Assembly (NCBI GenBank): GCA_013286145.1
Contig: JABDGH010000008.1
Coordinates: 1 to 64,000 of the forward strand
Origin: Verrucomicrobiota bacterium
Lineage (GTDB): Bacteria > Verrucomicrobiota > Verrucomicrobiia > Methylacidiphilales > UBA1321
Length of the DNA stretch: 64,000 nt
Direction of reading: 5' to 3'
The number at the start of each line of letters is the position of its first letter. Position 1 is the stretch's first letter. The notes under the pieces were generated by a model. It saw only the letters and a program-made list of their open reading frames with translations, was not told the DNA's origin and did not search any database. This document shows positions 5,272 through 20,772 of this stretch, one piece after another. Position numbers and translations under genes: made by a program.

Positions 5272-5414
5272 GTCATCCCGAGCTTGTCGAGGGATCAGAC
5301 ACGGGTTGCCGATACACAAAAGCTGAAAAGTCGAAAAGAGATATTTCTTTCCGTCATCTCCTGCGAAATGTTTTTTCGGGAACGTGTCTGATCCTTCGAC
5401 AAGCTCAGGATGAC
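5272..5414. repeat. Long-core palindromic repeat between actB and actC
   Basis: Arms of 32 nt at 5272-5303 and 5383-5414 are near-perfect reverse complements. They start GTCATCCCGAGCTTGTCGAG and end in GACACG at the core side. The unpaired core is 79 nt. The left arm carries the 'CCCGAG/GAGGG' variant and the right arm the 'CTTCG/CAGGA' variant. The same arrangement recurs at 54001-54141. Here it sits inside the act operon. Confidence 0.9.
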
Positions 5415-9598: not shown

Positions 9599-9876
9599 GT
9601 TGCGATGTAATAGCGGGTTTCATCTCCTCCGACCGACCTATCCTGCGTCTAAATGACAAAGGACGAATCATCGGTGAAACCCACTCTGTGGTTACCAGAC
9701 ACCCTTTGCGCGGGCAACCGGAATTGTGAAGTTTTTCATAATGTTTTTTTGGTAGCCTGTGATGGAAACTTGCAATGCAGGAATTTGCCCGGAAGCGTTG
9801 TCCATCGCTGAGCCCGCAACGGTTGATGGTTTTTCTTCCTCGCCCCCGACGCGGAGCCTGTTTTAACTCAGGGGCC

Positions 9877-11139
9877 ATGACAGACCACAGCGAATCGCTT
9901 CCCGTCACCCATACCTACCGCGAAATCGCTGCCGCTCTTCTGCACCCTGCCGTCATCGTCGGCGCACTCGGCTATTTCGTTGATATTTACGATCTTATTC
10001 TGTTCGGGGTGGTGCGTGTCCCCAGTTTGACGAAGCTCGGTTTCAGCGGCGATCAACTCGTTACCGAAGGCACCTGGCTCATCAATGTCCAGATGGCCGG
10101 GATGCTTATTGGCGGCCTGCTCTGGGGCTTGCTCGGCGACTGGCGTGGGCGGCTCAAAATCCTTTTCGGCTCCATCATCCTTTATTCGTTGGCCAATATC
10201 GCCAATGGTTTCGTCCACAACCTTAATGGATATACCGTGTGCCGGTTTCTTGCCGGGATAGGTCTTGCCGGTGAACTTGGCGGCAGTATCACGCTGGTTT
10301 CGGAGGCTTTGCCCCGCACGTTGCGCGGGTATGGCACCATGATGGTCTCGGCCATCGGCGTCCTTGGCGCGGTTGTTGCTGCAAAAGTGGGGCAATACTT
10401 TGACTGGCGCACCGCCTATTTCGTGGGCGGCGGCCTTGGTCTTCTCCTGCTTTTCTTGCGTGTTTGCGTGCGCGAATCGCACATGTTCAAGTCGATGAGC
10501 GAGAGTGGACGCCCCACTTTCGCCTCGCAATTAGGGCTTCTTTTTAAACCCAAGCGCGTGGGCCGTTACCTTTGCTGCATTCTCATCGGCCTTCCTTGCT
10601 GGTATGTTATTGGCCTCGTCATCCTCTTCAGTCCCGAATTTGCCAGGGCGCTCGGCACCACAGGCCCGGTGACCGCCGGTAACGCCATCGCTTGCAGTTA
10701 CACCGGCATCTGCCTGGGTGATCTCCTGAGCGGCGGTTTCAGCCAGTTCATCCGCGCGCGTAAAACCATGCTTCTTATTTTCATCCTGGCCACGTTCATT
10801 TTGGCCAATATCTTTTTTTCCCTCAGCAAGCCCAGCCCGGAATTGCTTTACGCTTCTATTTTTCTGATTGGCATTGCGGTCGGTTATTGGGCGGTATTTG
10901 TCACCGTGGCAGCCGAGCATTTCGGTACCAACTTGCGGGCGACCGTTGCCACCACCGTTCCGAATTTTGCCCGTGGTGCGGTTATCCCGGCCACCATGCT
11001 TTATAATGTACTCAAACCGGAATTCGGCATGCTTCACAGCGGGCTGGCCGTGGGCTGGATTGTCACTTTCCTCGCGTTGATCGGCTGGTTTGGACTCCGT
11101 GAAACTTTCCACGATGACCTCAATTACGTTGAAGAATAG
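9877..11139 (+). CDS. Major facilitator superfamily transporter
   Basis: 420 aa from the ATG at 9877 (MTDHSESLP), preceded by an AGGGG ribosome-binding site. The 34 extra codons of the ORF track before it (MQEFARKR...) look untranslated. There are twelve hydrophobic segments. The MFS loop 2-3 motif appears as GDWRGRLKIL, and helix 5 contains GIGLAGELGGSITLVSEALP, as in the sugar/aromatic-acid symporter group (sugar-porter or AAHS-like). The substrate cannot be told from sequence alone. It is transcribed divergently from the act operon and ends just before a strong hairpin. Confidence 0.85.
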   Translation: MTDHSESLPVTHTYREIAAALLHPAVIVGALGYFVDIYDLILFGVVRVPSLTKLGFSGDQLVTEGTWLINVQMAGMLIGGLLWGLLGDWRGRLKILFGSIILYSLANIANGFVHNLNGYTVCRFLAGIGLAGELGGSITLVSEALPRTLRGYGTMMVSAIGVLGAVVAAKVGQYFDWRTAYFVGGGLGLLLLFLRVCVRESHMFKSMSESGRPTFASQLGLLFKPKRVGRYLCCILIGLPCWYVIGLVILFSPEFARALGTTGPVTAGNAIACSYTGICLGDLLSGGFSQFIRARKTMLLIFILATFILANIFFSLSKPSPELLYASIFLIGIAVGYWAVFVTVAAEHFGTNLRATVATTVPNFARGAVIPATMLYNVLKPEFGMLHSGLAVGWIVTFLALIGWFGLRETFHDDLNYVEE

Positions 11140-11143
11140 GGTA

Positions 11144-11167
11144 GGGACGCGAGTCCCTTCGCGTCCC
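11144..11167. repeat. Strong hairpin, left partner of a covarying inverted pair
   Basis: A 9-bp perfect stem (GGGACGCGA / TCGCGTCCC) with a 6-nt loop, starting four bases after the MFS stop codon. No T-run follows, so it is not a classical intrinsic terminator, though it could still stop transcription or protect the 3' end. A related hairpin in inverse orientation lies at 11349-11374. Confidence 0.8.
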
Positions 11168-11203
11168 ACGAATGAATAATACCCGTATCATTTGTTTTTA
11201 GAT

Positions 11204-11313
11204 TTCTGTCATCCTGAGCTTGTCGAAGGATCAGCTTCCAGAAAGTGAACGCTTCCAGCTAAAGATTTTTATTTGCCGGGGGCTGATCCTTCGACAAGCT
11301 CAGGATGACAGAA
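11204..11313. repeat. Short-core palindromic repeat, copy between MFS gene and carB
   Basis: Arms of 32 nt at 11204-11235 and 11282-11313 are exact reverse complements (TTCTGTCATCCTGAGCTTGT...). The core is 46 nt and begins TTCCAGAAAG. The same 32/46/32 geometry occurs at 16526-16635, and in slightly longer form at 20657-20772. The cores resemble one another once oriented. Confidence 0.95.
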
Positions 11314-11348
11314 TGGTTAAGACTAAATTCAATTGAAAAATGGTATTA

Positions 11349-11374
11349 GACGGCAAGAGACTGCCGCCCCTACC
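11349..11374. repeat. Hairpin, right partner of a covarying inverted pair
   Basis: Read on the minus strand it is GGTAGGGGCGGCAGTCTCTT and on to GCCGTC, a counterpart of the plus-strand hairpin beginning at 11141. The stem pairs CGGCA with TGCCG where the partner pairs CGCGA with TCGCG, so both stem sides changed together. The two hairpins bracket the palindromic repeat at 11204-11313. Confidence 0.7.
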
Positions 11375-11451
11375 TTGAAAAAAGTTCGTTGCCCCGCGCC
11401 AGCCGCCCTTTATAAACGAAACTGGCGCGTTGACCTGTAGCGCGCCTTCAC

Positions 11452-14727
<3,276 letters not shown>

Positions 14728-16415: not shown

Positions 16416-16525
16416 ACCGTCATGCTAGCTGATTTATTGCACGGAGGCAAAAGATGGAAATGGGATGTCTTAAATTGAGTTCTGATAATCCCGGGCGATA
16501 GTGCGCCCTCATTGATCACTTCCCA

Positions 16526-16635
16526 CTCTGTCATCCTGAGCTTGTCGAAGGATCAGCCTCCGGTAAGCCTTGCACATATAAAAGAAAGTGTACGCTTTTG
16601 GGAGCTGATCCTTCGACAAGCTCAGGATGACAGAG
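16526..16635. repeat. Short-core palindromic repeat, copy after the HNH gene
   Basis: Arms of 32 nt at 16526-16557 and 16604-16635 are exact reverse complements (CTCTGTCATCCTGAGCTTGT...). The core is 46 nt. On the minus strand the core begins TCCCAAAAGCGTACACTTT and ends TTACCGGAG, resembling the cores at 20692-20737 and 11236-11281. It lies between the GlcD-like gene and the HNH gene. Confidence 0.95.
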
Positions 16636-20656: not shown

Positions 20657-20772
20657 CCGTTCCGTCATCCCGAGCTTGTCGAGGGATCAGCCCCCGACAA
20701 GCAATCACTTATAGAATAAAGCGTAGGCTTTCTGGATGCTGATCCCTCGACAAGCTCGGGATGACGGAACGG
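20657..20772. repeat. Short-core palindromic repeat, copy after the toxin remnant
   Basis: Arms of 35 nt at 20657-20691 and 20738-20772 are exact reverse complements (CCGTTCCGTCATCCCGAGCT...). The core is 46 nt, identical in length to the two other short-core copies. On the minus strand it reads ATCCAGAAAGCCTACGCTTT and ends GCTTGTCGGGG. It lies 50 bp after the toxin remnant and 100 bp before the MurK-MurQ gene. Confidence 0.95.

Follow-up and report, generated by a model that had tools for sequence, protein, structure and literature searches.

The window, a 64-kb stretch of DNA, represents contig C8 of a 2.33-Mb assembly (genome G000, 66% complete). In it, a gene for an MFS transporter is followed on the same strand by carB, which codes for the large chain of carbamoyl-phosphate synthase, and the 312 bp that separate them (11140-11451) are largely taken up by a composite of palindromic sequences (Table 1). 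An earlier note, made from the sequence alone, had described two inverted hairpins in this gap that share GGTAGGG, AGTC and CTT, with a 32-46-32 palindrome between them. A direct check of the sequence confirms that paired hairpins and palindrome (11204-11235, 11236-11281 and 11282-11313) are real.

Table 1. Features of the MFS-carB region, in window coordinates
Feature	Position	Strand	Remarks
MFS transporter gene	9775-11139	+	Pfam MFS_1, E 5e-25; TAG stop directly abuts left REP arm
Left REP arm	11140-11167	+	GGTAG tag plus 9-bp stem, 6-nt loop; matches family consensus exactly
Parts of left hairpin	tag 11140-11144; stem 11144-11152 with 11159-11167	+	GGTAG tag; stem GGGACGCGA pairs with TCGCGTCCC
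Left part of dimer spacer	11168-11176		ACGAATGAA; compared with the 11-14 nt spacers of 12 intact dimers
Proposed inserted palindromic element	11177-11348		TAATACC...GGTATTA; possibly duplicated TA; exact ends inferred
Outer layer, left	11190-11207	+	ATTTGTTTTTAGATTTCT; also in inner-element copies G000:C41 and G000:C28
Inner 32-46-32 palindrome	11204-11313		Repeat-family core 11208-11309 (GTCATCC...GGATGAC, 102 bp)
Outer layer, right	11310-11335	+	AGAATGGTTAAGACTAAATTCAATTG; also in the C41 and C28 copies
Right REP arm (CGGCA type)	11349-11374	-	Somewhat decayed: outer stem base lost, A-T pair broken
Likely carB promoter	TTGCCC 11389-11394; TATAAA 11411-11416	+	3' of the composite; inferred from conservation
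carB, carbamoyl-phosphate synthase large chain	11452-14727	+	Pfam CPSase_L_D2, E 3e-117

On the minus strand, starting at 11374, the right hairpin reads GGTAGGGGCGGCAGTCTCTTGCCGTC. It is identical to the left hairpin at 20 of 26 positions, and two central stem pairs are swapped between them (C-G to G-C and G-C to C-G); the stem that remains intact on the right is only CGGCA/TGCCG (11351-11355 with 11362-11366). When the window was searched for GGTAGGGACGNNAGTC with up to two mismatches, the two hairpins were the only sites recovered, against 0.16 expected by chance.

A dispersed GTAG-tagged repeat with two arm types

The earlier note had called for a genome search for the GGTAGGG hairpin, alone and in pairs. 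This search reveals that the two hairpins are related, that both have many other copies and that these are mostly paired: they are the arms of a single 65-bp repeat unit, GGTAGGGACGCGAGTCCCTTCGCGTCCC-(12 nt)-ACGGCATGGGACTGCCGTCCCTACC. The 28-nt left arm GGTAGGGACGCGAGTCCCTTCGCGTCCC occurs 24 times in the own genome (2.33 Mb, up to three mismatches; none for a reversed-pattern control), and the matches listed include 11 exact copies of the right-arm type GGTAGGGACGGCA. For nine of these 11 there is a left arm at a distance of 51-54 bp; the two arms face each other in every case, with constant polarity. Half of the left arms (12 of 24) are followed by an intact right arm across a spacer of 11-14 nt, which measures exactly 12 nt in eight cases; in a further four the right arm is truncated in place, in one it is interrupted (in the copy on contig C45 the interruption falls inside the right arm), and six have none. 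The one that remains is the window copy, with a spacer of 182 nt.

Beyond the own genome, at least 27 left arms are present in the congener G003 among the matches listed. The unit is present once, with a single left arm, in a second congener, G006, and once in G181, from another family of the class; of 384 sampled genomes from this class, almost all others lack it. The right arm in the window differs by one base from that of the G006 copy (L154). Many G003 copies start shortly downstream of a stop-like triplet, and the window copy is intergenic, in a family dispersed in many copies. Across 19 aligned units the GGTAG tag is nearly invariant, standing unpaired at one end of a 28-nt imperfect palindrome. 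The family thus shows inverted REPs with their tags outside and a short, regular distance between them, the arrangement that defines a REPIN, which in the window appears once the insert is subtracted. On sequence anatomy, then, the unit can be classed as a GTAG-tagged head-head heterodimer REP of REPIN/BIME-like type. A second REP family, GGTAGCCGCCGATGGCCCATCGGCGG, adjoins many GGTAGGG dimers (L002, L003, L047, L049, L051 and L006), which suggests composite mosaics.

If the family works like a REPIN, as its anatomy would imply, its mobility would depend on a RAYT, and this dependence is putative. None of the RAYT (PF01797) loci in five repeat-bearing genomes (G000, itself 66% complete, G003, G006, G181 and G242) is flanked by the GGTAGGG family. 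The only RAYT-like gene of the own genome (L039, C2:707-1072) is flanked by GGGTGGCCCGGACAAC palindromes; the inverted GGGTGGCCCGGACAACTTGTTGTCCGGG palindromes on both sides of this PF01797 gene constitute a separate repeat family, a relative of which adjoins a GGTAGGG arm in L004. Similarly, the RAYT-like gene of the congener G001 (L111, C264) is flanked by GTAGCGGCGGTC palindromes and bracketed by GTAGCGGCGGTCTATGACCGCCGAC REPs, and a closely similar REP occurs in G000 (L034 and L069). A TnpA gene in G003 (L090) was considered as a candidate RAYT and rejected, its locus containing no GGTAGGG copy and the gene itself looking like an IS200-type TnpA.

The inner palindrome and a proposed order of events

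What, then, separates the two arms in the window? The palindrome between them belongs to another family. Its arm has 121 and 124 matches on the two strands of the own genome (up to three mismatches; control 0), and many full copies of 101-103 bp lie in unrelated surroundings. It is short, non-coding, bounded by terminal inverted repeats and present in many copies, features that it shares with MITEs. Within the window, 5393-5414, 16523-16634 and 20657-20769 are further copies or half copies of this 102-bp family. Searches of the literature for the sequence of the inner repeat, and of a plasmid collection, gave no match.

In two copies, C41:2226-2394 and C28:12124-12274, the core is surrounded by the same outer layer as in the window (ATTTGTTTTTAGAYTT...GGTTAAGACTAAATTCAAWT); a search of the genus for the outer layer alone gave no further clear copies. 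Relative to this layer, the loop of the inner palindrome in C28 points the other way from that in C41 and the window, which looks like an inversion of the loop between its arms. In the window the outer layer runs on to TAATACC (11177-11183) and GGTATTA (11342-11348), with TA at both proposed ends. If 170 bp are deleted so that one TA is left, the spacer shrinks to 12 nt and the unit to 65 bp, the modal size of the family. When the flanks were shuffled, in a test framed post hoc, 0.2% of trials gave an inverted repeat of 7 bp that had TA at its ends and left a spacer of fitting length, and 20% gave a 7-bp inverted repeat of any kind. Only about half of the bases in the 12-nt spacer so obtained match the consensus. 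Moreover, clear homology in C28 and C41 ends near ATTTG...CAAWT, and such ends would leave a residual spacer of 38 nt, not 12. As neither copy has clean TA ends or a clean TA duplication, the borders given here for the insert are provisional.

The nesting of the palindrome inside the dimer is well supported because two dimers in G003 are likewise expanded by other palindromes, one (L138) with a 109-nt spacer that holds what is left of a member of the inner family and one (L226/L149) with a 130-nt spacer that holds a GGTAGCCGCC inverted palindrome pair; the exact ends and the TA duplication are putative. The nested insertion proposed in the earlier note is accordingly upheld, in the form of one unit whose spacer, normally 11-14 nt, here measures 182 nt and contains a palindrome of another family. 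We consider it probable (about 0.8) that the composite is a GTAG-tagged, REPIN-like REP heterodimer split by a later palindromic repeat of a different family, an ordinary case of repeat-in-repeat insertion.

Alternatively, the arms could be unpaired singlets of the same REP family that arrived independently to the left and right of an inner palindrome already in place. Solitary left arms do exist (the six above), and other REP families cluster beside the GGTAGGG family at several loci. Right arms, however, are almost never solitary, given the 9 of 11 exact listed copies found next to a left arm of the same polarity, and the pair in the window keeps the polarity of the family and returns to modal spacing on removal of 170 bp. 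We regard independent arrival as decidedly improbable.

A relative without the composite bears on when the repeats arrived. In G006 the MFS gene is also followed by carB, but the two genes are only some 100 bp apart and nothing of the composite is seen there; the repeats therefore arrived in the lineage of the window, or were cleanly lost in G006. As the MFS gene has its stop codon in G006 as well, this codon was not supplied by the TAG of the repeat. For a later insertion into a dimer, we infer the following order. The 65-bp REPIN-like dimer would have landed directly 3' of the MFS stop codon in the lineage of the window, mobilised in trans, as in other REPINs, by a putative RAYT-type single-strand transposase. 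The palindromic repeat (a 102-bp core plus outer layer, some 160-172 bp, MITE-like) would then have entered the short AT-rich spacer of the dimer, probably at a TA that may have been duplicated, moving the arms apart by 170 bp. Together with the one in the window, there are at least three palindrome-expanded dimers, and it is conceivable, though we hold it only tentatively, that the AT-rich spacers of REP heterodimers are a preferred landing site (with TA as target) for unrelated MITE-like palindromes, and that nesting is recurrent in the genus.

Stem differences, folding and position relative to carB

The earlier note had also read the stem difference between the hairpins, CGCGA/TCGCG against CGGCA/TGCCG, as compensated change under selection on structure. 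The difference is real; the selection at this site is not upheld. CGCGA on the left and CGGCA on the right is a standing difference between the arms, found in nearly every copy in G000, G003, G006 and G181. Being fixed across the family, it is inherited rather than the product of local compensation. Among the 19 aligned units, with the window row entered after removal of the insert, 92.7% of stem cells pair, and double changes occur at only two stem pairs, in five cells (GC-to-AU in four rows, AU-to-UA in one); their count is above that in shuffles, yet amounts to about two events. A model in which the ends of the dimer pair with each other as a long outer stem was rejected, as it showed no covariation. 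REPs that transpose via single-stranded hairpins would also keep their pairing, as may be inferred from PMC3116915 and PMC8266576, so pairing is by itself no argument for a function as RNA.

That the whole 235 bp might be one selected three-stem RNA or cruciform acting in the carB leader finds its encouragement in the predicted fold, which is very stable (z = -12.2 as RNA, -11.0 as DNA). This stability follows from the 32-bp inverted repeat of the inner element, which makes most of the pairing; covariation is slight, and the Rfam scores, far below the gathering cut-offs (AaHKsRNA41, 42 bits against 97; mir-3524, 30 against 99), were rejected as chance palindrome matches. The composite, furthermore, occurs once in the assembly, and is missing from the syntenic G006 locus. 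Nor does its position fit. A TTGC-N18-TATAAA element lies ahead of carB at equal spacing in all six congeneric genomes with a carB start, and since this conserved promoter-like element is downstream of the composite, the composite is probably outside the carB leader. The leader role raised in the earlier note thus finds no support, and a selected three-stem structure of this kind is highly improbable.

Could the hairpins instead serve the MFS gene, as an intrinsic terminator pair or as hairpins that stabilise the 3' end of its mRNA, the family being kept for that role? In favour are the direct contact of the left arm with the MFS stop, the many G003 copies that begin closely behind a stop-like triplet, and the typical location of REPs downstream of genes (PMC3733652). 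Against this, there is no T-run, a scan for terminators and promoters found nothing, the syntenic locus in G006 lacks them, and a position downstream of genes is equally expected from insertion followed by purifying selection; we think such a role unlikely. As DNA or as MFS 3' RNA the composite can only act as a hairpin, and it is probably without a dedicated function at carB.

When the copy number and the standard spacing of its parts have been established, a striking multi-stem structure in raw sequence can thus be understood as layers of mobile repeats, and the case carries a warning that stem differences between the arms of REP heterodimers should not be taken as local compensatory evolution. 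It also adds a REPIN-like family, with nesting that may be recurrent, for a poorly studied genus of Methylacidiphilales.

The repeat unit and known REP systems

Verrucomicrobia are known hosts of GTAG REPs (Opitutus terrae; PMC3733652), and two-residue stem differences, partners separated by inserted DNA, and REPs placed directly against stop codons have all been described (PMC3733652, PMC3116915). The unit resembles the head-head heterodimers of Di Nocera et al. (2013, PMC3733652), in its outer GTAG tag and short imperfect palindromes, and in facing pairs with a short conserved spacer and arms that differ at two stem residues, although the string GGTAGGG is absent from the main text of that paper. 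With the REPINs of Bertels and Rainey (2011, PMC3116915) it shares an inverted REP doublet as the unit, a spacer less conserved than the arms, and singlets that are decayed or disrupted doublets; the arms here are of two distinct types, whereas those of REPINs are nearly identical. Interruption of a REP structure by a mobile element is known from IS1397, IS621, ISPpu9 and ISPsy8 (PMC1525189), but in the present case a short non-coding palindrome has been inserted, and the site is the spacer of a dimer rather than one REP. A palindrome and a REP dimer are also nested in the GTAG-15 dimers within long palindromes of A. variabilis (PMC3733652, section 7), with the order reversed: there the dimer lies inside the palindrome, here the palindrome inside the dimer.
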